Made by a program: the position numbers and the translations under genes. Below the pieces are notes generated by a model. The model saw only the letters and a list, made by a program, of their open reading frames with translations. It was not told where the DNA came from and did not search any database. DNA of 63,743 nt from contig WRHR01000006.1 in the NCBI GenBank assembly GCA_009783145.1, positions 1 through 63,743 of the forward strand, given 5' to 3'. This DNA comes from Alphaproteobacteria bacterium (lineage in GTDB: Bacteria > Pseudomonadota > Alphaproteobacteria > Rs-D84). Below are positions 2,982 through 63,743 of this stretch, one piece after another. Numbering within the stretch: position 1 is the first letter of the stretch; each line of letters starts with the position of its first letter.

Positions 2982-3058
2982 TGGCGGGATTGACGGGACT
3001 CGAACCCGCGGCCTTCTGCGTGACAGGCAGACGCTCTAACCAGCTGAGCTACAACCCC
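2982..3058 (-). tRNA. tRNA-Asp(GTC)
   Basis: Reverse-complement cloverleaf with anticodon loop CTGTCAC (GTC), acceptor GGGGTTG/CAATCCC, discriminator G and an encoded CCA at 2982-2984. Confidence 0.95.
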
Positions 3059-3213
3059 AACTTGTCACCCAAAGCCCAAAGGGCGACGGGTGAAGCCCGC
3101 CCAGTTTATACTCTTATTCAACAAAAATCAAGGAGTTTTTTCACCATCCTTCGCCCGCTGGGCTTCGGGTGGCAAGCCACCCAAACGGGCGGTTTTCACT
3201 TCGCAAGTTATAG
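3059..3213. repeat. spacer with degenerate palindromes
   Basis: GGGTGG/CCACCC-type arms recur (for example about 3150-3200, around GGCTTCGGGTGGCAAGCC). No gene or promoter stands out. Confidence 0.4.
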
Positions 3214-4890
3214 CTATTGCTGGCACTGCGCGACGATAAGGCTTTGCTCTGTTTTAAGTTTAGATATCAGTAGGCCGTACGACAAGAAATCTTCATCAGA
3301 AAGTGGGTTCGGAACAACAGGGTTAATTGGATTATTAGGATTGTTTGGGTCTTCAACCACTTCCGAAACAGGGATACATTTATTATCACTTTTTACATAA
3401 CCTTTCCCTTCGTCGCACTTCCAAAAAACGCATACATCTGCATCTCTTTGACCATTTTTGCCTTGTTTCGGCTTCAACGCGCCATCATACAATACCCCAC
3501 CTTCAGCATCGGGTTTTGTAAAGCCAGGACACCACATTTTAGGGTCTTCAATGCAGGGGCCCCAATGGTCGTCGCGAAGCGCTTGCTGAATACGATTGCC
3601 TACTTTTTCAGTGTATTGTCCTTGCATACAAAACTTTATTTTTGGAACTTCATCACAGAACATAAACCCACCGATATCGACATACCGTTCGCCCTTGTTG
3701 AACTGCGTGTGGCAACAAGTATACACACCAACACGTGGGTCATGTTCGCAATCGGTTTCCGAGAATAATTGACTGCCGCCCATCAAGCCTCCACCAACCG
3801 CGCCGATAGCTGCACCCACTGCTGTGGTAATCCCGATCGGTACGACACTGGCGACAGCTCCTCCAACCATAGCGCCCCCAGCGGCACCTTCAAGCACACT
3901 ACCCCATGTATGCGGACCTGCTCCTTTGACAGAATCCGCCACCATCAATGCACCACCAAGTGCAGCCAAACCTGTGGCCCATTTCGCGCCACGAGACATC
4001 CCTTGCCAATTCGCTTTTGTCCCTTGGGCGATACCCTTGAGACCACCAGCGCCGCCCGCTGCGCCTCCAGCTGCACCGGCCAAAGGAGCACCCGTATTCG
4101 ACGATGTAAAACCTGGGCTATTCGCAGTAGTAGAAACCGTACCACCTCCAACGCTGCCGCCTGCACCTCCACCGCCAGATGTATAATTAACATTTCCGCC
4201 GGACGGAGTGCTGAAATATCCACCTGTTGCCGCCCCTGCGCCAGCGGCTGCCCCGCCAGCCGGAGCAATACCCGCAGCCGACAGCACGTTTGCATTCGAT
4301 ACCCCTTGTCCGCCAACTTTCAGCCCGTTAATAGTATGTCCTGCGGCATATTGAAATCCTCCGGCCTTATTTTGGGCAATACCGGCTTGCTGCAATCTAT
4401 TTAACTGCTCTGGAGTAAAACTGCTCGGCAAAGCAGGGGCAGTGACTCTTCCCGCATTGGCCGCAACTTGTTGAACCACAGGAGCGCTTACATTGCTTGC
4501 AACACTGGGCGCTGCTCCGCTGGATGTGCTGCTATATGAATAGCCGCCGCCAGTGCCCCCGCTGGATGAACCGCTGTATGAATACCCGCCGACGCTACTA
4601 GTAGTAGTGCTGCTTGCCACACCTCCCATGCCACCGGCAACATTGTAACCTGCCGCCCTTGTATTAGTATCAAAAATCGACTGCGTAATAGGATTGCCAG
4701 CCCCTGGTTGCCCTGCGCCCCATACAAGATTTCCGGCAGTGTTTCTTTCCCAGCCCAATGCCGCCACTTGCGCGGTGTTCAGATTATCGCCAACAAGGGC
4801 TGCCGTTGCCGGCGCAAAAACCAATCCGTTGACGGAACAGAAGAATATAATAAAGAACAAACCTAAAAAAGATCTGAATATTTTACTCAT
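3214..4890 (-). CDS. exported glycine/serine-rich protein with cysteine-rich C-terminal half
   Basis: I do not recognise a family. The start at 4890 gives a 558-residue protein opening with a signal peptide (FRSFLGLFFIIFFCSVNGL). Residues ~60-330 are low-complexity Gly/Ala/Ser repeats (GGYSYSG, GGAAGGAGG). A hydrophobic Gly-rich segment (VGAAIGAVGGGLMGG) and a C-terminal region with about a dozen cysteines follow. The next upstream gene in the same direction also encodes an exported Cys-containing protein, and a prepilin peptidase starts the row. The three likely form one operon for surface or envelope structures. A longer start at 4929 would overlap the upstream gene and weaken the signal peptide. 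Confidence 0.75.
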   Translation of the reverse strand: MSKIFRSFLGLFFIIFFCSVNGLVFAPATAALVGDNLNTAQVAALGWERNTAGNLVWGAGQPGAGNPITQSIFDTNTRAAGYNVAGGMGGVASSTTTSSVGGYSYSGSSSGGTGGGYSYSSTSSGAAPSVASNVSAPVVQQVAANAGRVTAPALPSSFTPEQLNRLQQAGIAQNKAGGFQYAAGHTINGLKVGGQGVSNANVLSAAGIAPAGGAAAGAGAATGGYFSTPSGGNVNYTSGGGGAGGSVGGGTVSTTANSPGFTSSNTGAPLAGAAGGAAGGAGGLKGIAQGTKANWQGMSRGAKWATGLAALGGALMVADSVKGAGPHTWGSVLEGAAGGAMVGGAVASVVPIGITTAVGAAIGAVGGGLMGGSQLFSETDCEHDPRVGVYTCCHTQFNKGERYVDIGGFMFCDEVPKIKFCMQGQYTEKVGNRIQQALRDDHWGPCIEDPKMWCPGFTKPDAEGGVLYDGALKPKQGKNGQRDADVCVFWKCDEGKGYVKSDNKCIPVSEVVEDPNNPNNPINPVVPNPLSDEDFLSYGLLISKLKTEQSLIVAQCQQ

Positions 4891-6278: not shown

Positions 6279-6299
6279 TTTTGTTTTCCTTTTTTATTT

Positions 6300-6416
6300 A
6301 CTGGATTGCTTCGCTGCGCTCGCAATGACAATTCGGTGTTTGTTTCAGACTGTATACCCCATTTTGCCCGTAATTGTCATTGCGAGGAGCCTGAAGGGCG
6401 ACGCGGCAATCCAGTC
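6300..6416. repeat. TTGTCATTGCGAG-type palindromic repeat pair
   Basis: Two inverted copies face each other: CTGGATTGCTTCG...CGCAATGACA and TGTCATTGCGAGG...GGCAATCCAG. The same family occurs at 25147-25241, 30650-30755 and 54389-54467. Confidence 0.85.
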
Positions 6417-6484: not shown

Positions 6485-7006
6485 ATGGCGCAAGTCGGCT
6501 GGACGCCCAGTATCTTAAACAAAATGAAAACCCTGCTGGAACGCGGCATGAGCACCGCGGAAATCGGGAAGAAAATCGGCATGTCAAAGAATGCCGTGGT
6601 CGGAAAGCTGAACCGGCTGGGCTGGAACAGCAAGGCCAAGGAATCTCCCGTCAAGAAGACCCCTGCGAAAAAAGAAATCGTGATAAAGGTAAAGCCGCCG
6701 AAAAAATCCGCGCAAAAGAAAACTCCGGCCCAGATAGCGCAAGAGAAAAAATCCCCCTCCGCCAAGGCTACGGGGGACAGGGCCGCAGGCAAAAACCAAA
6801 AGAAAAACCTGGTCGCGCACCAGCATATGATTCAGCACGCAATAGAGCTGGCGCTTTTACGCCCCGATCAATGCCGCTGGCCCATCGGCAACCCCGATTC
6901 GGACAAGTTTCATTTTTGCGGCGAAAAAGCGTTCCCCGGCAAGCCTTATTGTTACGAGCATTGCCGCGCAGCTTATCAGATGCCACCGCCAAAGAAGCAG
7001 GGATGA
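6485..7006 (+). CDS. gcrA: GcrA cell cycle regulator
   Basis: An alphaproteobacterial sigma70-associated transcription regulator that binds methylated GAnTC promoters. The N-terminal domain is diagnostic: GWTPSILNKMKTLLERGMS followed by IGKKIGMSKNAVVGKLNRLG (helix-turn-helix, residues ~5-45). The C-terminal domain CRWPIGNPDSDKFHFCG...YCYEHC (about 127-165) is the sigma-binding part. The linker is Lys/Ala rich and contains an in-frame palindromic repeat (6752-6777) read as SPSAKATGDR. Its ATG follows AAAGGA. A large membrane protein gene starts 3 nt after the stop, so the two are likely one transcript. Confidence 0.95.
   Translation: MAQVGWTPSILNKMKTLLERGMSTAEIGKKIGMSKNAVVGKLNRLGWNSKAKESPVKKTPAKKEIVIKVKPPKKSAQKKTPAQIAQEKKSPSAKATGDRAAGKNQKKNLVAHQHMIQHAIELALLRPDQCRWPIGNPDSDKFHFCGEKAFPGKPYCYEHCRAAYQMPPPKKQG
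6752..6777. repeat. in-frame 26-bp palindrome in gcrA
   Basis: Arms TCCCCC/GGGGGA around the GCCAAGGC centre, translated as part of SPSAKATGDR (about residues 90-98) in the GcrA linker. Confidence 0.85.
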
Positions 7007-7009
7007 CGG

Positions 7010-9163
7010 ATGACGGACGAGAGAGAACCCATTTCCAAAACAGAACTAGCCGCGGCGCCGGATTCCGGCATGCCCGTGTTTTCTTTCTCCGCGACCGATG
7101 ACAACGCGGGCCTCGCTCCCGAATATTTCGAGATAGAGGGGAACAAGTTCGCGGGATTTTACGACGGGGCGCACCGCCTGATTTTCGTTCTGGACGAAAC
7201 GCATACGGAAAACACTCCGAACGCATTGCTGGTCATCGGGGCGCAGGGCGGCCGCAAGTGGGACGATATCCTGGGCAACGATTACAAGCTTGATCTTGAA
7301 GAAATCCGGCCCAAGAAAAACAACAAGTATCAAAAGCTGGACATCGATTACGAAGGGTTGGGGATTTACGGGCAGCTTATCGCCGATTACAGAACCGGCG
7401 GCGATACTGGGGCATCTTTGCAAGCGCTGGGCGATTTTCGCGCCCTTGTCGGGAAAAAGCTGGCGGAGGCGCGTCTGTTGGCGGCAACGCGGGAAATCGA
7501 AATCGCAAGCGCGACGATGGAAAAAGCCGTTGCCGCCATCGCAAAGCTGCGCGCGCAATTGAAGTCTTTGAAAACAAAGCTGGCCGAGGCAAAGGCCGGC
7601 ATCGGGAAAAAGCCTACCAAGGAATCCGCCGCCAAGATTTTGAAAATCCAATCGCAGGCGGACAAGGCGGATGAAAAGGAAAAGCGCGCCGAGCAGCGCA
7701 TGCGCCGCGCGAAAAAACGGCAGGAAGACGCAATGCGCGACGCGGAAACCGCGCGCAAAATTCTGAATGCCGCAGCGCCCGTCCGGGAAGAACGCGTCGT
7801 GCAGCCGGTCGGGGCGCACAAAGAGACAAAACACAAGGAGCCGGAAATGGCAGACAAAAATAATCATGAAGAACCAAAGCCTTTGTTCGATCGAGATCCG
7901 GAGATAATCGATGATAAAATCGCTTTCCAGCCGATAGGGTTTGAAACAACGGGCTCATTTGACGCAGGCGCCGCGCAGCCGGCTGCCGCCGATACGGTAT
8001 TCCCGACTCCTCAGCCGGCGGAAGAACCCGCCTACGCTGAAGCTCCGGCGGACAGGCCAATAACGGTCGCGCCGGTTATGAATACGGCGACCCCGATAAA
8101 CATGACTACGCCCGCATTTTCCGAAACTCCGACGACCCAGCCCGCCGGAGCTTACTCGCCGACGATGCAAATGGCGCCACCCTTCGCCGAGGCTTCGGGT
8201 GGCAGGCCGGTGCATCCTGGGGGCGGCGGAATGATGCCTTTGTCGCCCGGAACGCATGGCGCGAACAATAAAAAACCGACCGCGATTTATTATATTATGC
8301 TGATACTGCTGATCGGCTTGTCGATATTGACTCTTTGGTTGTATCAGACACGTATGGATAACGCAGCGGCGCCGGAATTGGCGTCAGCCTCAAATCAGCC
8401 GGAATTGATAACCGCTCCGAAGATATCAAAAACCGCGCCGCGGCCCCAAGCGACCGACAGATATATATATGTGCCGGCCCCCGGCGGAACCGCAGCAAAG
8501 ACCGAGCCCGCGCCGCAACCTCAGCCGTTTCTTGAACAGCCCGCGTCAAAACCGGAGTATAGAATAGTATCGCAGCCGTACTTCGAAGCCGAAGAAGAAG
8601 AGGCTGTAACGGTCAATAAGCCGGAATACTCGCTGTTGGGCCCGTCAAGGTACGAGCCGGAGGCCGCGCCAGAGCCGGTCATAGAGCAGCAATACTTTGC
8701 GGAAGAATCCGAGTATATGAGAACGAGCCAAGCCGAAGGCGGGCGAAGTTCGAATAACTACGAGGATACGCGCAGCGAAGCGAGCGAATCTGATGTCTAT
8801 GAGATAGCGGCAGGCGGAAGCTTATCAGGCAACTTGTCCGAAATGGCGGCCGAGGAAGATTTTTACGAAGCTCCGTATGAAGCGCCAATGGCCGCACCCG
8901 AACCCGAGGTTTTCTATAACCCCAGCACGGATAACAGCACATATGCGGATTTCTCGGACGAATCCCCCTTCGCCGAGGCTATGGGGGACAGGCTGCCCGC
9001 GCAGGAAGCTATGGAAGAACCCCAGCAGCAATACTGCAGCAGCGGCACCGAACCGGACGAGGACGGCTGCTGCCCGGGCGAGAATCTGCAATGGGTGGAA
9101 AGCTTTAACGGGTACGGCTGCTGCTCGGCCGAAGATGGTGAATGCTATCCGCCGATGAGGTAA
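7010..9163 (+). CDS. large single-pass membrane protein with coiled coil and Cys-rich tail
   Basis: Not a family I recognise. Of 717 residues, ~1-140 form a soluble N-terminal domain, ~150-260 a Lys/Ala/Glu coiled coil, then a Pro-rich linker, one membrane helix (about 425-446, IYYIMLILLIGLSILTLWLYQ-like), a second Pro/Glu-rich region and a short cysteine-rich C-terminus (CCPGE, YGCCSAEDGECYPP). With the N-terminus inside, the Cys-rich tail would be periplasmic. Three in-frame palindromes (8028-8055, 8177-8202, 8963-8988) add PAYAEAPADR, PPFAEASGGR and SPFAEAMGDR. It starts 3 nt after gcrA and ends at a strong terminator, so gcrA and this gene form a two-gene operon. Confidence 0.85.
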   Translation: MTDEREPISKTELAAAPDSGMPVFSFSATDDNAGLAPEYFEIEGNKFAGFYDGAHRLIFVLDETHTENTPNALLVIGAQGGRKWDDILGNDYKLDLEEIRPKKNNKYQKLDIDYEGLGIYGQLIADYRTGGDTGASLQALGDFRALVGKKLAEARLLAATREIEIASATMEKAVAAIAKLRAQLKSLKTKLAEAKAGIGKKPTKESAAKILKIQSQADKADEKEKRAEQRMRRAKKRQEDAMRDAETARKILNAAAPVREERVVQPVGAHKETKHKEPEMADKNNHEEPKPLFDRDPEIIDDKIAFQPIGFETTGSFDAGAAQPAAADTVFPTPQPAEEPAYAEAPADRPITVAPVMNTATPINMTTPAFSETPTTQPAGAYSPTMQMAPPFAEASGGRPVHPGGGGMMPLSPGTHGANNKKPTAIYYIMLILLIGLSILTLWLYQTRMDNAAAPELASASNQPELITAPKISKTAPRPQATDRYIYVPAPGGTAAKTEPAPQPQPFLEQPASKPEYRIVSQPYFEAEEEEAVTVNKPEYSLLGPSRYEPEAAPEPVIEQQYFAEESEYMRTSQAEGGRSSNNYEDTRSEASESDVYEIAAGGSLSGNLSEMAAEEDFYEAPYEAPMAAPEPEVFYNPSTDNSTYADFSDESPFAEAMGDRLPAQEAMEEPQQQYCSSGTEPDEDGCCPGENLQWVESFNGYGCCSAEDGECYPPMR
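8028..8055. repeat. in-frame palindrome in the 717-aa protein gene, copy 1
   Basis: A degenerate copy (CCGCC...GGCGG arms) read as AYAEAPADR. Confidence 0.7.
8177..8202. repeat. in-frame palindrome in the 717-aa protein gene, copy 2
   Basis: A near-consensus copy with arms CCACCC/GGGTGG around GCCGAGGC, read as PPFAEASGGR. Confidence 0.85.
8963..8988. repeat. in-frame palindrome in the 717-aa protein gene, copy 3
   Basis: Arms TCCCCC/GGGGGA around GCCGAGGC, read as SPFAEAMGDR. Different arms, same fold and frame as copy 2. Confidence 0.85.
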
Positions 9164-13304: not shown

Positions 13305-13333
13305 TTGCATTTTCTTATTTTACGATGTATAAT
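13305..13333 (+). promoter_or_regulatory. promoter of structured leader RNA, copy A
   Basis: TTGCAT at 13305-13310, 17 bp, TATAAT at 13328-13333. Exactly the same two boxes and spacing drive copy B at 30090-30118. Confidence 0.85.
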
Positions 13334-13339
13334 TGCGCT

Positions 13340-13512
13340 GACGCCAAGCGTTTTGGCGTTGAGGAATAAGAACCTCTTACGGTTGTCTTAAAAAGACGTA
13401 AAACTCCTGTCCAGGCAGGAGGCCGTCGAATAAGGCCTATGTCTAATAAGGCGGGCTATCCGTATAGTTCTTATCCTCCTGCCACTTTTTTTCTAAAAAA
13501 AAGTGGCTTTTT
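13340..13512 (+). ncRNA. structured leader RNA with attenuator, copy A
   Basis: A candidate riboswitch or attenuator not matching any class I know. In order: a hairpin ACGCCAA/TTGGCGT (13341-13359); GAGG...CCTC; a domain closed by GGCAGGAGG (13414-13422) pairing with CCTCCTGCC (13475-13483) and containing GGCCGTCGAATAAGGCC; then a terminator hairpin GCCAC.../...GTGGC (13481-13507) followed by Ts. The closing stem and the terminator share the bases GCC, so they compete. CCTCCT can also pair with the AGGAGG before the downstream ORF. Copy B at 29925-30083 is homologous, with compensatory changes in the first hairpin (ATGTCGG/CCGACAT). Confidence 0.75.
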
Positions 13513-13529
13513 AATTTAAGGAGGAAAAA

Positions 13530-13733
13530 ATGACAGAACCGCCGACCGACGAAGAAACAAAAACCTTCCAAACGATGATTACCCTGGCCATCGCGGAACT
13601 CTCCGAGTATCCTTCTATTATGGCCTTGTTATGCGGAGTGCAAAGAATCAAATCCGAATACGAAAAAATTCTTAGCCGGCCGCCTATTTTTTTGGGGTTT
13701 ATACTGATAACTCAGCAAAATTATTATAAATGA
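13530..13733 (+). CDS. small acidic protein behind leader RNA A (C-terminus altered by insertion)
   Basis: Not recognised. 67 residues with an acidic, helical N-terminal part (TEPPTDEETKTFQTMITLAIAEL). It starts after a strong AAGGAGG ribosome binding site immediately downstream of the leader terminator, so its expression should depend on read-through. The last ~14 residues (FLGFILITQQNYYK) are encoded by the 87-bp inverted repeat of the adjoining island, which implies that the original C-terminus was replaced when the island inserted. The second leader RNA precedes an unrelated small basic protein. Confidence 0.7.
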   Translation: MTEPPTDEETKTFQTMITLAIAELSEYPSIMALLCGVQRIKSEYEKILSRPPIFLGFILITQQNYYK

Positions 13734-13780
13734 GAATTATAACGCTATATATAGCAGAATCTACGGGAAAATCAAGATAT
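13694..13780. repeat. left 87-bp inverted repeat of a ~1.17-kb island
   Basis: Perfect inverted match to 14773-14859. It starts inside the small ORF at 13530-13733, whose end it replaces. Confidence 0.95.
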
Positions 13781-14006
13781 CTTTGACCGCAAGAATACGC
13801 TGTATATCTCCAATCTGAAATTCGTGCAGATTAACCTTTCTCTGTATAGGTTTGACTTTAATAGGTATTTGGACGGCACACGACCGCGTCCGCATTTTAT
13901 GGACGCTGATTATGCGAAAGAACTAACGCAAACTACGCCATCTGTCCGTATCAACTTTGAAGGCGGGCAGATTACTGACGATTTGGACGATAATCTGTTA
14001 TAGAAA
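13781..14006 (+). pseudogene. coding-like remnant inside the island
   Basis: An open frame without a start codon runs from the left inverted repeat to a TAG at about 14000. Its translation has protein-like composition (NTLYISNLKFVQINLSLY, then RINFEGGQITDDLDDNLL). It looks like the C-terminal part of a gene cut off by the repeat. No family recognised. Confidence 0.45.
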
Positions 14007-14669: not shown

Positions 14670-14772
14670 CAAATAATGTATTTAGAAACTTAAAAAGTTG
14701 AAAATCCGCCATTGTTGGCGGATTTTCCTTGCTTTTACCCAAAATCAGCCCGATTTATTAAAAATTCATAAA

Positions 14773-14859
14773 ATATCTTGATTTTCCCGTAGATTCTGCT
14801 ATATATAGCGTTATAATTCTCATTTATAATAATTTTGCTGAGTTATCAGTATAAACCCC
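14773..14859. repeat. right 87-bp inverted repeat of the island
   Basis: Perfect inverted match to 13694-13780. It ends just upstream of the XRE regulator promoter region. Confidence 0.95.
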
Positions 14860-14905
14860 ATTTTTTTGCTTGAATCCTATTGAAAAATTTCCTATATAAC
14901 GAATC

Positions 14906-25146: not shown

Positions 25147-25241
25147 TCTGGATTGCCGCGTCGCTTGCGCTCCTCGCAATGACAAGTGAGAGTATATTAA
25201 ACACCGAATTGTCATTGCGAGCAAAGCGACGCAATCCAGTC
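25147..25241. repeat. TTGTCATTGCGAG-type palindromic repeat pair
   Basis: Facing copies CTGGATTGCCGCG...CGCAATGACA and TGTCATTGCGAGC...GCAATCCAG. The second copy encodes the last residues and stop codon of hisS. Confidence 0.85.
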
Positions 25242-26510
25242 ATTAAGATCGGTTTTTACCTGTTCTCCCGTTGCCATATTCTTGACTGTCAGCATTCCGG
25301 ATTTTACTTCATCTTCGCCGATTATTATGCTGAATCTACTCTTTATTTTATCAGCATACTCCATTTGATTTTTGAACTTTCTATCGGCATCCAAGTATGG
25401 CACAGCAACGATTCCGGCTTCTCGCAACGCCGTCAAAACCGACATTGCGAACGCTACCTGCGCCTGCCCCATAACCAGCACCGAAACATCGACCGGATTT
25501 TCAAACCTGGTTAAATCAATCCTATTATCATCCATCAAAGCGACCAACATTCTGGAAATCCCGATCGCAGCCCCTGCCCCTATTATCGAAGTTTTCGAAA
25601 ATTTCGATGCCAGTTCGCCGTATCTGCCGCCACCACACACCGATCCAAAGTCTGGATAGTTATTCAAATAAGTTTCATAAACCAAACCGGTATAATATGC
25701 CAATCCGCGCATTATTGAAAGATCAATTTTTGCGTTTTTTACACCCATTGCGGTTAATAAAGATTCAAATTCCATTATTTCTGAAATGGCCGAATCCAAG
25801 TTTGCAGATTGGTTTAAGAATGATTTGTAACCGGTTGTAAATACTTTTAAAATTTCAATTGTATCTTTTTCGCCGACAATGTCTTTAAGGCCTATTTCAA
25901 AGTCTTTTTCATCCATTTTTGCGCGTTTATCTATCCAGATAAATAATTGATTTCGGACACATGTATCCAGACCTAATATGTCAGACAACGCATTCCAAAA
26001 AGGACGCGATCCGATGCAAATTGTAACGGGACCGATAAATTCTTTCACAGATTCAAACGTCCGACTGATGGTTGATATAATTTCGGCATCATAGTTGTTT
26101 GAAAGACCGCCAATGCCCAAAATATCCAAATCCATCTGGTAAAGTTCGCGATAGCGGCCTTTTTGCGGACGTTCGCCGCGATATACCCGGTTTAATTGGG
26201 TTGCCCGGAATGGAAAAACCAGGTCACTCAGATGACCGCTGACATAACGCGCCAGCCCGACCGTGCCGTCATAGCGCAGTCCCATTTTCGTATCGCCTTT
26301 TTGAAACAGAAACATCTGTGTTTCTATTTCGTCCCAATTGTCCTTGTCGGTTAAGACTTCGGCGCGTTCTATTGCCGGCAGGTCTAACCGCGTAAAACCG
26401 GCGGTTTTCAGCACTTCCTGCATACGGCGCGCGCACTCGTCAAAGCACCGCTGCTGAACGGGCAGCAGCTCTATAAATCCTGATAAAGGTTTTGTCGGTT
26501 TAAGATCCAT
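25212..26510 (-). CDS. hisS: histidyl-tRNA synthetase
   Basis: Charges tRNA-His. Class II motif 2 (FRATQLNRVYRGERPQKGRYRE), the HisA motif (RGLAYYTGLVYE) and CGGGRYG are present in 432 residues, and the C-terminal anticodon-binding domain is complete (VLVMGQAQVAFAMSVLTALR, KFKNQMEYADK). The final DWIASLCSQ-stop is encoded by a TTGTCATTGCGAG-type repeat, so the native C-terminus was replaced or extended. tRNA-His lies ~440 bp upstream in the same direction. Confidence 0.95.
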   Translation of the reverse strand: MDLKPTKPLSGFIELLPVQQRCFDECARRMQEVLKTAGFTRLDLPAIERAEVLTDKDNWDEIETQMFLFQKGDTKMGLRYDGTVGLARYVSGHLSDLVFPFRATQLNRVYRGERPQKGRYRELYQMDLDILGIGGLSNNYDAEIISTISRTFESVKEFIGPVTICIGSRPFWNALSDILGLDTCVRNQLFIWIDKRAKMDEKDFEIGLKDIVGEKDTIEILKVFTTGYKSFLNQSANLDSAISEIMEFESLLTAMGVKNAKIDLSIMRGLAYYTGLVYETYLNNYPDFGSVCGGGRYGELASKFSKTSIIGAGAAIGISRMLVALMDDNRIDLTRFENPVDVSVLVMGQAQVAFAMSVLTALREAGIVAVPYLDADRKFKNQMEYADKIKSRFSIIIGEDEVKSGMLTVKNMATGEQVKTDLNDWIASLCSQ

Positions 26511-27664: not shown

Positions 27665-28582
27665 ATGCCAGCAAAATCAATTAAAAAATCCGCCTCCGCC
27701 AAGGCTCTGGCGGACAAGCCGACAAAAGCCTCTATCAAAAAAAAGCCTGTAAATGTACCAAAACCCGCCCCTGCCAAGGTATTGGCGGACGAAGTTTCAG
27801 CGAAGCGCGCCAGCGCGAAGGCTGATAAAAAACCGGAATTGAACGTCGTTTGCATGGCGTGGTTGCGCGAAGACGGCACCAAGAAATTTAGCGAAGAATA
27901 CGTAAACCGCCTTTATCGCATGGTGCAAAAGAACCTTACTCTGCCGCATCGGTTCGTGTGTTTTACCGACTATCCGGACAAGTTCGACGACGGAATTGAA
28001 ACATTTCCTGTGCCAAAAGTGAGGTTTCCAAAGGGATGCCCCGAACGCGGATGGAAGAAACTTGGCCTGCTTCTGTCGGGCAAGGTGGAAGATTTGAAAG
28101 GGACCGCCCTCTTCCTGGACTTGGACACCGTAATTGTCGACAATATTGATGATTTGTTCAAGGTGCCGGGAAAATTCCTTATCGCGCGCGACAAAGCGAA
28201 CAATGACAAGGAAGGCAATTCATCCGTGGTGCGCTTTGAAATCGGAAAACATCAAGACGTATTGGATTATTTCGAAAAGAATTTTGACCGCGTGCGGCAC
28301 GAAGTCCGGCGCGAGCAGCAATTCTTATCCAATGAAATGCAGAAAAAGGGTATTTTTCAGTTCTGGCCGAATGAAAACTGGTGCGCAAGCTTTAAATATA
28401 AAAGCCTGCTGCGGTTTCCGCTGAATTGGTTCATTGCCCCGAAAATACCGAAAGGCGCGAAAGTCGTAATCTTTCACGGAAGACCGAATAACGAGCAAGC
28501 CATGAAAGGCTATACGGCGAAGTTCGGGCTACGCCATGTTAAGCCCACAAAATGGATAAGGAAATACTGGATTGATGCGTAG
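27665..28582 (+). CDS. glycosyltransferase-like protein with repeat-derived N-terminus
   Basis: From the ATG at 27665 (after AAGGAAGGA) the protein has 305 residues. The first ~60 are Ala/Lys-rich and built from palindromic repeats (ASAKALADKP, APAKVLADEV). The rest resembles a GT-A glycosyltransferase: NVVCMAWLREDGTKKFS at the start, then GTALFLDLDTVIVDNIDDLF, a DxD-like metal site (about residues 160-165), and a C-terminal IFHGRPNNEQAMKGY. A capsule/LPS or glycan role is possible but not shown. The next gene starts inside its stop region. Confidence 0.75.
   Translation: MPAKSIKKSASAKALADKPTKASIKKKPVNVPKPAPAKVLADEVSAKRASAKADKKPELNVVCMAWLREDGTKKFSEEYVNRLYRMVQKNLTLPHRFVCFTDYPDKFDDGIETFPVPKVRFPKGCPERGWKKLGLLLSGKVEDLKGTALFLDLDTVIVDNIDDLFKVPGKFLIARDKANNDKEGNSSVVRFEIGKHQDVLDYFEKNFDRVRHEVRREQQFLSNEMQKKGIFQFWPNENWCASFKYKSLLRFPLNWFIAPKIPKGAKVVIFHGRPNNEQAMKGYTAKFGLRHVKPTKWIRKYWIDA
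27695..27714. repeat. in-frame palindrome in the glycosyltransferase-like gene
   Basis: TCCGCC/GGCGGA arms around AAGGCTCT, read as SAKALADK. A degenerate second copy lies at about 27774-27792. Confidence 0.8.
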
Positions 28583-29724: not shown

Positions 29725-29904
29725 TTATATCTCTTCTCTAACAATATACACGCCTTTGTAACGCTTCTCCAAGTCTTTGAGTCTTCGGTTTCGTTTTGTG
29801 CATTCGAAGAGATATTTCTTTATGAAATTTAATGCGCGTTTGTTTTGAAGCTCGTCGTCCATGATTGCCTGCATGTCTTTTCTTGAATATAATTTCAAAT
29901 TCAT
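29725..29904 (-). CDS. small basic protein behind leader RNA B (59 aa)
   Basis: Not recognised. Highly charged and helical (LYSRKDMQAIMDDELQNKRA, then NFIKKYLFECTKRNRRLKDLEKRY), without signal peptide. It starts after GGAGG, 21 nt downstream of the leader terminator hairpin, the same layout as the small ORF behind leader RNA A, although the two peptides are unrelated. The chosen ATG at 29904 fits the ribosome binding site; a longer frame would run into the terminator. Confidence 0.75.
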   Translation of the reverse strand: MNLKLYSRKDMQAIMDDELQNKRALNFIKKYLFECTKRNRRLKDLEKRYKGVYIVREEI

Positions 29905-29924
29905 TTCTGCCTCCGTTTGGTTAT

Positions 29925-30083
29925 AAAAAACCACCTTTAATTTTAAAGGTGGCAGGAGGTGAAAAACTACTACAAGAGATAGCCCGTCTTATTAGGCCGA
30001 GGCCCTATTCGACGGCCTCCTGCCTAGACAGAAGGCTTTCTTGCAAGAGGTTTTTCAGCCTCAATGTCGGAATGCCCGACATC
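29925..30083 (-). ncRNA. structured leader RNA with attenuator, copy B
   Basis: Homologue of the RNA at 13340-13512. First hairpin ATGTCGG/CCGACAT (30082-30064) directly after the start site; GAGG...CCTC; GGCAGGAGG (30024-30016) pairing with CCTCCTGCC (29959-29951); an internal GGCCGTCGAATA segment; and a terminator hairpin CCACCTTTAA/TTAAAGGTGG (29952-29931) followed by six Ts. The first hairpin differs from copy A at most positions yet stays paired. CCTCC is complementary to the GGAGG of the downstream gene. Confidence 0.75.
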
Positions 30084-30089
30084 AAGGCA

Positions 30090-30118
30090 ATTATACAATG
30101 AAATATGAAAAAATGCAA
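30090..30118 (-). promoter_or_regulatory. promoter of structured leader RNA, copy B
   Basis: TTGCAT (30118-30113), 17 bp, TATAAT (30095-30090), identical boxes and spacing to the copy A promoter. The start is expected at about 30083, just at the first hairpin. Confidence 0.85.
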
Positions 30119-30649: not shown

Positions 30650-30755
30650 GGCGGGCCGAGCTTCGCTCGCAATGACAATAAAGAGTTTATTGGGCCACAA
30701 AGCTTAAAACAAACACCGAATTGTCATTGCGAGCCCGCAGGGCGAAGCAATCCAG
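30650..30755. repeat. TTGTCATTGCGAG-type palindromic repeat pair
   Basis: CTTCGCTCGCAATGACA and TTGTCATTGCGAGCC...GCAATCCAG face each other between the spanin-like genes and rho. Confidence 0.85.
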
Positions 30756-54376: not shown

Positions 54377-54388
54377 ATTTTTATTTGC

Positions 54389-54467
54389 TGGATTGCTTCG
54401 CCCGTTGGGCTCGCAATGACAAATCGGCATAAATTGTCATTGCGAGCCCGAAGGGCGCGGCAATCCA
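54389..54467. repeat. TTGTCATTGCGAG-type palindromic repeat pair
   Basis: CTGGATTGCTTCGCCC...CGCAATGACA faces TTGTCATTGCGAGCC...GCAATCCAGC between envC and tyrS. Confidence 0.9.
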
Positions 54468-54470
54468 GCA

Positions 54471-62710: not shown

Positions 62711-63743
62711 ATGAAACTAACTTACATAACGCGGACAGTGACGTTGTGCTTGGCGATACCGCTGATGACATCCGCTGCTATGGCGGCGACCGTCACGATT
62801 GACGGCGTTACGCTCAGCACCTATGCTTACGGCAACGGCCCGGCGGATACTGTCGGCGCCATTACCGGAAACGGCGGCTGGCCTTTATCCGGTCTTGCGA
62901 GCGACCTGTTGTCCTCTAACGGCAACACGCTCAACTTCCTTAACGGCAATATGACCGGAAAAGAGATTTTTGGCGGATTTATGGAAGCCTCCGGTTCTAT
63001 TACCGGCAATATTACGGCCAGCAACAACACCGTGATCAAGGACAACAGCATCGGCGGAAACGTCTATGGCGGGTGGGCGGATGCTTACTTGACCGGCGGC
63101 ACCAATGCCACGGCCAATCAAAACAGCGTGACCCTGTCCGGCAATAGCGATTCGTATTATGTAAGCGGCGGATATGCTCAAAGCGAGGCCGACACCGCCA
63201 CAACCAACAGCAACATTGTCAACATTATCGAAAACAGCACAGTTGACACTGTTGTCGGCGGGCATGCTTACAGCGACTATGGCACAGCCATAGCCAGCAG
63301 CAACACCGTAAACATCACCGACGGCAGCACGATTACCAACGATGTTTATGGCGGGCATGCGAACAGCGATGATGGCAACTCCACGGCCAACAGCAACTCC
63401 GTGAGCATTGATGACAGCGCGGTTTCCGGCCGTGTTTTCGGCGGCTATGCCTATGTGTACTACGACGGCGATACCACGGCCAGTAACAACACCGTGAGCA
63501 TTAACGACAGCGCGATTTCCGCCCGTGTTCATGGCGGCTATGCCTATACGTACTACGATGGCAACGCCACGGCCAACAGCAATACTGTGAAAATTGACGG
63601 CGGCACGATTTCCGGTCGTGTTTACGGCGGGTATGCCTATGTGGACGAAGATGGCAACGCGACGGCCAGTAACAACAAGGTGAGCATTACCGACATCACG
63701 ACTTATAATAGTGTTTTCGGCGGCTATGCCTATGTGTACGGCG
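62711..63743 (+). CDS. exported repeat protein, autotransporter/adhesin-like (truncated by window end)
   Basis: The frame stays open from the ATG at 62711 to the window end (344 codons). A signal peptide (TVTLCLAIPLMTSAAMAA) is followed by tandem ~24-33-residue repeats of the type FGGYAYVYYDGDTTASNNTVSI then NDSAISARVHGGYA, rich in Asn, Ser, Gly and Thr. This is the composition of beta-helical passenger domains of surface autotransporters. GGAAGAAAAAA precedes the start. The AG tract and leader hairpin upstream suggest phase-variable expression. The C-terminal barrel, if any, lies outside. Confidence 0.85.
   Translation, partial: MKLTYITRTVTLCLAIPLMTSAAMAATVTIDGVTLSTYAYGNGPADTVGAITGNGGWPLSGLASDLLSSNGNTLNFLNGNMTGKEIFGGFMEASGSITGNITASNNTVIKDNSIGGNVYGGWADAYLTGGTNATANQNSVTLSGNSDSYYVSGGYAQSEADTATTNSNIVNIIENSTVDTVVGGHAYSDYGTAIASSNTVNITDGSTITNDVYGGHANSDDGNSTANSNSVSIDDSAVSGRVFGGYAYVYYDGDTTASNNTVSINDSAISARVHGGYAYTYYDGNATANSNTVKIDGGTISGRVYGGYAYVDEDGNATASNNKVSITDITTYNSVFGGYAYVYG

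Follow-up and report, generated by a model that had tools for sequence, protein, structure and literature searches.

Within the 63,743-nucleotide stretch of DNA analysed here (the window), a compact RNA unit lies between a promoter and a 59-codon gene. A sequence-only reading took it for the second copy of a leader RNA that starts at its first hairpin and contains an aptamer-like domain. This raises the question of what kind of RNA the unit encodes, and how it may act on the gene behind it. Phage P1 silences its antirepressor gene with the C4 antisense RNA, a type of RNA familiar from lysogeny control and from lists of small RNAs.

Anatomy of the leader unit

Every part named for the second unit (copy B) was located within 30119-29725 of the minus strand, and the proposed order of hairpin, compact domain, six-T terminator, GGAGG and 59-codon gene was confirmed. 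The predicted sigma-70 promoter (TTGCAT-17-TATAAT) occupies 30090-30118, with the -10 hexamer at 30095-30090; a second promoter scoring returned an overlapping -35 with the identical -10 (TTTGCA-18-TATAAT, 10/12). Transcription is predicted to start at ~30083, which indeed coincides with the first base of the 5' hairpin GATGTCGG/CCGACATT (30063-30083, computed fold). All nine copies of the unit in this genome carry a TATAAT-like hexamer ~57-90 nt 5' of the closing stem P1, that of the C1 copy being judged by eye.

Hairpin H1, GAGG-CTGAAAAA-CCTC, follows at 30047-30062. Its loop is the complement, equivalent to 'a1' of phage P1, of the segment immediately 5' of P1' (the 3' strand of stem P1), and pairs better with its own locus than with permuted loci. 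TTGCAAGA (30039-30046) is the complement of the second antisense loop and equivalent to phage 'b1', as supported by fold and permutation statistics. Next comes CCTTCTGTC (30027-30035), an anti-P1 strand (P1*) that forms an alternative partner for the 5' strand of stem P1.

The C4-type core spans 29951-30024 and is supported by our covariance model R1, by covariation and by a 34-bit match to sRNA-Xcc1. It is closed by P1 (30024-30016/29959-29951) and continues with P2 (30015-30011/29988-29984), with an internal loop GAATA/AATAA, followed by P3, by P4 with an antisense loop at 29979-29970, and by the antisense segment GTTTTTCA (29967-29960). Behind P1' lies ACC (29948-29950), an instance of the RCC motif that is a feature of RNase P substrates. 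The intrinsic terminator, GCCACCTTTA-AAAT-TAAAGGTGGT plus TTTTTT, occupies 29925-29953, and its stem (29953-29930) overlaps P1' by 3 nt. A Shine-Dalgarno sequence, GGAGG, at 29910-29914 precedes the gene (29725-29904, ATG at 29904), which encodes a member of a small protein family. The 164-nt leader of copy B folds at -76.7 kcal/mol, compared to -41.9 +/- 3.7 kcal/mol for shuffled sequences (z -9.5). The start site, termination and attenuation of copy B are predictions.

Copy A, on the plus strand at 13328-13733, has the same order of parts: a -10 hexamer, a leader, the core (13414-13486), a terminator and a 67-codon ORF. The hairpin GTCTTAAAAAGAC had been called optional, and this holds, since it is peculiar to copy A and the spacer that separates CCTC from the closing stem varies among copies. 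Two 91-nt inverted repeats with 99% complementarity (13693-13783 and 14770-14860) bracket a 215-aa ORF. The small ORF of copy A extends into the first of these repeats and may therefore have been truncated by an insertion.

Other repeats were observed in the window. A 34-nt palindromic element of the CCGCCTTCGCCAAGGCTACGGCGGACA type occurs at 11 places (e.g. 6746-6779, 8957-8990 and 27683-27716). One or more of its copies lie within a reading frame, and the element recalls the palindromic elements of rickettsiae. Another dispersed repeat, CTGGATTGCTTCGC..GCTCGCAATGACAA, is found at 6294-6341, 25167-25246, 30660-30755 and 54386-54470, occasionally as a tight inverted pair. Near the end of the window, 93-nt tandem repeats (63167-63739) of coding-type sequence probably belong to a repetitive surface protein.

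Identity of the core

At the Rfam cut-off, only tRNAs were detected in the whole window. The nearest Rfam model for copy B is sRNA-Xcc1 (RF02221), which aligns over positions 1-87 of 87 with the consensus pairs retained and scores 34 bits, below the gathering cut-off of 53. The copies of this genome range from 34 to 41 bits (best 40.6), and a genome of the same family has one at 58. Annotated phage and plasmid RNAs that conform to the sRNA-Xcc1 consensus lie ~40 nt 5' of an antirepressor, KilA-N or BRO gene. These relatives, found in Aaphi23, Acinetobacter phage 4316, Rac-SA53, Pmp3, Stx phage P27 and a Pseudomonas plasmid, score 65-86 bits with the sRNA-Xcc1 Rfam model.

The Rfam C4 model (RF01695) has no match in the genome of copy B at E up to 10, and R1 does not recover c4 in phage P1, so that the tie to P1 c4 stands on layout and intermediates. 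The phage P1 record gives the order a1, b1, c4, a2, b2, icd, and the Rfam models C4 and c4-a1b1 (RF03163) both match at this locus. P1 c4 consists of a closing stem, a hairpin, a hairpin with an antisense loop and an antisense segment directly 5' of the closing stem's 3' strand, followed by CCACC. Copy B shows the same closing stem, two hairpins and two antisense segments in the order of phage P1, with the a1/b1 complements present in the leader; the segment next to P1' corresponds to a' of the phage and the P4 loop to b'. Complements equivalent to a2/b2 were not found at the ribosome binding site of the gene behind in copy B's subtype (AAUA).

Judged by layout and intermediates, the window RNA is of C4 type and nearest to the sRNA-Xcc1 branch. 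By score, it is a member of neither Rfam family. The 'aptamer-like domain' of the sequence-only reading is more readily accounted for as a C4-type antisense RNA core, because sRNA-Xcc1 is the nearest family, its phage relatives precede antirepressors, and layout and a1/b1 order are those of phage P1. 6S RNA, SRP RNA and a toxin-antitoxin RNA, weighed by fold and gene order, were dropped once sRNA-Xcc1 and C4 fitted.

Copies across the genome and the class

Further copies across the genome were first located by BLAST and with the Rfam family sRNA-Xcc1. Model R1 comprises 37 copies, phage ones included. In the draft genome (0.95 Mb), it detects nine copies with E ~2e-5 or better. Its E-values are rough and its scores for copies of this genome hold by construction, since the model was trained on such copies; this applies equally to the core of copy B, a training-set member with 53.9 bits and E 3.6e-8 per genome.

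At least one match to the sRNA-Xcc1 model is present in 34/60 relatives, and R1 finds matches in 46/385 sampled genomes of the class. The window's family (four sampled genomes, including its own) has six to nine copies apiece by R1. Other R1-positive genomes of the class mostly have one to four copies and a few have more, with one genome reaching eleven. No close DNA relatives of copy B were found in phages, plasmids or E. coli, and two exact patterns of the family subtypes gave no match in viral contigs, which is a weak test.

The genome with eleven copies, G341 (loci L110 and L154-L161), belongs to another family of the class, and several of its copies lie 5' of similar XRE regulators or of 44-46-aa ORFs. 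Tandem R1 matches (1279-1351 and 1386-1454) share one small-protein gene behind them at locus L225. A Neisseria gonorrhoeae record of 2.17 Mb, listed as a plasmid (L090), has a strong and a weak sRNA-Xcc1 match in a row (2986-3065 and 3210-3280).

Covariation and leader complementarity

Over the 19 core pairs of 72 copies from this genome and its family, covariation amounts to 0.452, compared to 0.188 +/- 0.010 after shuffling and no more than 0.158 after sliding, with the proviso that fitting the alignment to the model favours its structure. Changes on both sides occur in 18 of the 19 pairs. This covariation disfavours the reading of the unit as a DNA-level repeat, such as an insertion or recombination site, whose RNA fold would be fortuitous. 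While many copies are indeed scattered over one genome, promoter, terminator and Shine-Dalgarno sequence keep a fixed order, stem changes are compensatory and the antisense sequences differ copy by copy, which makes such a repeat highly improbable.

Leaders follow a common order, in which a hairpin loop faces the segment by P1', a stretch faces the P4 loop and a strand faces the 5' strand of P1. Complementarity is 20.6 between leader and segment (16.2 +/- 0.39 for permuted loci) and 20.5 between leader and loop (16.9 +/- 0.39). A hold-out of 24 loci was collected with a search pattern in which P1, AATA and P1' are the only fixed parts. Here, the segment reaches 17.6 (permuted 13.5 +/- 0.42), the loop 19.0 (15.9 +/- 0.45) and the anti-P1 strand 17.9 (11.3 +/- 0.46), in a set that is partly dependent, since it includes the training copy L210 and several loci from already sampled genomes. 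By these permutations, leader complementarity is locus-specific. The hold-out loci derive mostly from metagenome-assembled genomes of uncultured Alphaproteobacteria or 'Rickettsiales', some from named ruminants; one is from Candidatus Enterousia avistercoris and one is labelled Kiritimatiellaeota. From the isolate names, we read them as mostly gut bacteria.

The anti-P1 strand is strong in 21/24 and 43/47 family copies, in 36/68 class copies and in 2/10 phage or plasmid copies.

Two competing folds

The leader complements of antisense segment, loop and P1 imply two mutually exclusive folds of the transcript. The minimum-energy fold is locked in 9/9 copies of this genome, with the leader paired to the antisense parts and the terminator formed. 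P1:P1* pairing is part of it in eight of the nine, and in copy B the P1 strand belongs to a different hairpin further inside. Forcing the full P1 to form, terminator included, costs 5.6-17.6 kcal/mol across the nine copies, as calculated with energies that ignore a possible loop pseudoknot. As the locked fold is very stable on paper, adopting the C4 fold may require cleavage or folding under kinetic control.

U-runs are present in 17/24 AAUA-subtype and 38/47 Xcc1-subtype family copies, in 35/68 class copies and in 0/10 phage or plasmid copies. Where family copies have a U-run, the terminator stem almost always starts 3-5 nt inside P1', so that full P1 and full terminator exclude each other. 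This overlap of terminator and closing stem fits attenuation, and may partly stem from P1 ending in CC followed by RCC. The C1 copy has no such U-run; instead, a hairpin masks the Shine-Dalgarno sequence in front of a Stealth-type gene.

RCC follows P1' in 44/56 copies, which is compatible with an RNase P substrate. RNase P cuts phage C4 at the 5' end of P1 (PMC5320573). By analogy, the 5' cut in copy B would fall between 30025 and 30024.

Search for a target at the downstream ribosome site

The targets of C4 RNA in phage P1 are a2 and b2, before icd. If copy B acted in the classic manner, its released RNA would pair with the ribosome site behind it, in cis or in trans, and block translation as in phage P1. 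Phage and plasmid copies have a strong loop target behind the RNA (19.05, compared to 13.72 +/- 0.61 for permuted loci). Near-perfect 11-nt matches are seen at L058 and L079. In Xcc1-subtype family copies, the segment matches its own Shine-Dalgarno-to-start region above permuted loci (14.24 vs 13.08 +/- 0.36 at the ribosome binding site; 15.95 vs 14.57 +/- 0.35 over a wider stretch), and Xcc1-subtype copies elsewhere in the class have a modest segment target at their own ribosome binding site, above permutations. The AAUA subtype of copy B, by contrast, gives no significant target signal at the ribosome binding site, neither for the segment (15.02 vs 14.33 +/- 0.50) nor for the loop (14.78 vs 14.43 +/- 0.49), and the AAUA hold-out shows no downstream target either (12.83 vs 12.62 +/- 0.42). 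Since the target is undetectable in its subtype, a switch in cis is our preferred reading of copy B, ahead of classic antisense repression, which we consider unlikely.

Genes behind the RNA

Behind most copies, an ORF preceded by a Shine-Dalgarno sequence begins 37-60 nt past the core. Pfam domains in the family comprise Stealth (2), several glycosyltransferase families, RgpF, TupA, PAP2 (3), Chlam_PMP (3) and HTH domains; in the class, they comprise HTH, outer-membrane proteins, pilins, DNA methylases and KilA-N. Secreted proteins, autotransporters and HTH regulators are also among the genes behind copies, and the gene frequently concerns a surface protein or a surface sugar. An N-terminal signal or membrane segment was assigned to 36/65 family proteins and to 15/72 window ORFs, using a crude heuristic and a background that includes shadow ORFs. 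The 59-aa protein of copy B groups with the protein of the C20 copy. Across 54 genomes, its family has the RNA directly upstream in 7/8 coding places; it has no Pfam match above cut-off and no PHROG match.

These genes bear on two further explanations. A riboswitch would bind a small molecule in the conserved GAATA/AATAA internal loop, whose A and T residues are invariant across family and phage copies; the closing stem does adjoin a terminator. However, the Pfam matches of family and class revealed no pathway common to the genes behind, the core is related to RNAs preceding phage antirepressors, and the antisense segments vary in step with their leader complements. None of the evidence tested points to a small-molecule ligand, and we regard a riboswitch as very unlikely.

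Alternatively, copy B could be a free-standing small RNA acting in trans, with the gene behind it a passenger transcribed by read-through. Precedents are sRNA-Xcc1 itself, detected as a ~100-nt RNA with ends mapped to 88 nt (PMC2996969), and the 21 C4-like sRNAs of A. baumannii (PMC5320573). Against this stand the closely spaced, Shine-Dalgarno-bearing ORFs behind most copies, the confinement of one small protein family almost entirely to places behind the RNA, and the C1 copy, which lacks the U-run terminator and instead masks its Shine-Dalgarno sequence with a hairpin. One search pattern for two-part sites that copy B might bind in trans matched a handful of places in its own genome, not clearly more than the reversed-pattern control. 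A purely trans-acting role appears rather improbable.

Proposed mechanism

Exclusive pairings, a terminator overlapping P1' and a fixed order of promoter, RNA and gene are shown at the level of sequence. On balance, we think it probable that copy B is a self-locking, terminator-equipped C4 derivative that serves as the leader of a chromosomal gene and whose two folds switch termination. In the locked fold, the leader would pair with the antisense parts and the 3' end of P1' would stay free, allowing the full terminator to form and transcription to stop near 29925. In the C4 fold, P1 would reclaim the shared nucleotides, the terminator would lose its lower pairs and the small gene would be read. 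The P1 end would then present an RNase P-type substrate, from which a ~100-nt RNA would be released. A competing RNA, a protein, RNase P or the speed of folding are candidate triggers that may tip the balance.

More broadly, C4 appears here as a repeated promoter-leader-terminator module of reduced genomes, which precedes capsule-type glycosyltransferases, autotransporters and secreted proteins. It is a distinct possibility, which we put forward tentatively, that in gut Alphaproteobacteria a phage-type immunity RNA turned into a self-locking transcription switch, present on the chromosome in multiple copies ahead of many surface and regulatory genes. The complements in its leader would act as the lock, and it would have gained a terminator and lost its target downstream. 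If true, surface genes of little-studied bacteria would share one common RNA-based control, and the series from phage through class to family would illustrate how an antisense RNA may become a cis switch. The a1/b1 leader, labelled merely as putative target sites in the phage P1 record, would gain a concrete and testable role. Earlier work has already described C4 RNAs, a1/b1 leaders and C4-like sRNAs that occur in multiple copies (PMC2864571, PMC5320573). A limited literature search found no description of C4-type leaders with an anti-P1 strand and a terminator before chromosomal surface genes in Alphaproteobacteria.

Comparison with known systems

With the C4 RNAs of phages P1 and P7 (RF01695, RF03163), the window RNA shares the closing stem, the hairpins, the antisense loop and segment, RCC, the upstream order of a1 then b1, and a gene behind; an anti-P1 strand is also present in phage P1. 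It differs in having gained an intrinsic terminator, in preceding chromosomal genes rather than icd/ant, and in that no a2/b2 target could be detected for the subtype of copy B.

The A. baumannii Group 1 C4-like sRNAs likewise comprise many C4-type RNAs per genome, which are apparently processed at the 5' end of P1 (PMC5320573). They are reported as sRNAs, whereas here a different gene lies closely behind each copy.

sRNA-Xcc1, which is found upstream of symE in Xanthomonas integron cassettes (PMC12444791), has identical internal-loop letters and phage relatives 5' of antirepressors, whereas P3 is shortened or missing in the AAUA subtype here. Compared to the sRNA-Xcc1 phage copies, in which P1* and the U-run terminator are rare or absent, both elements are common in the family of the window.
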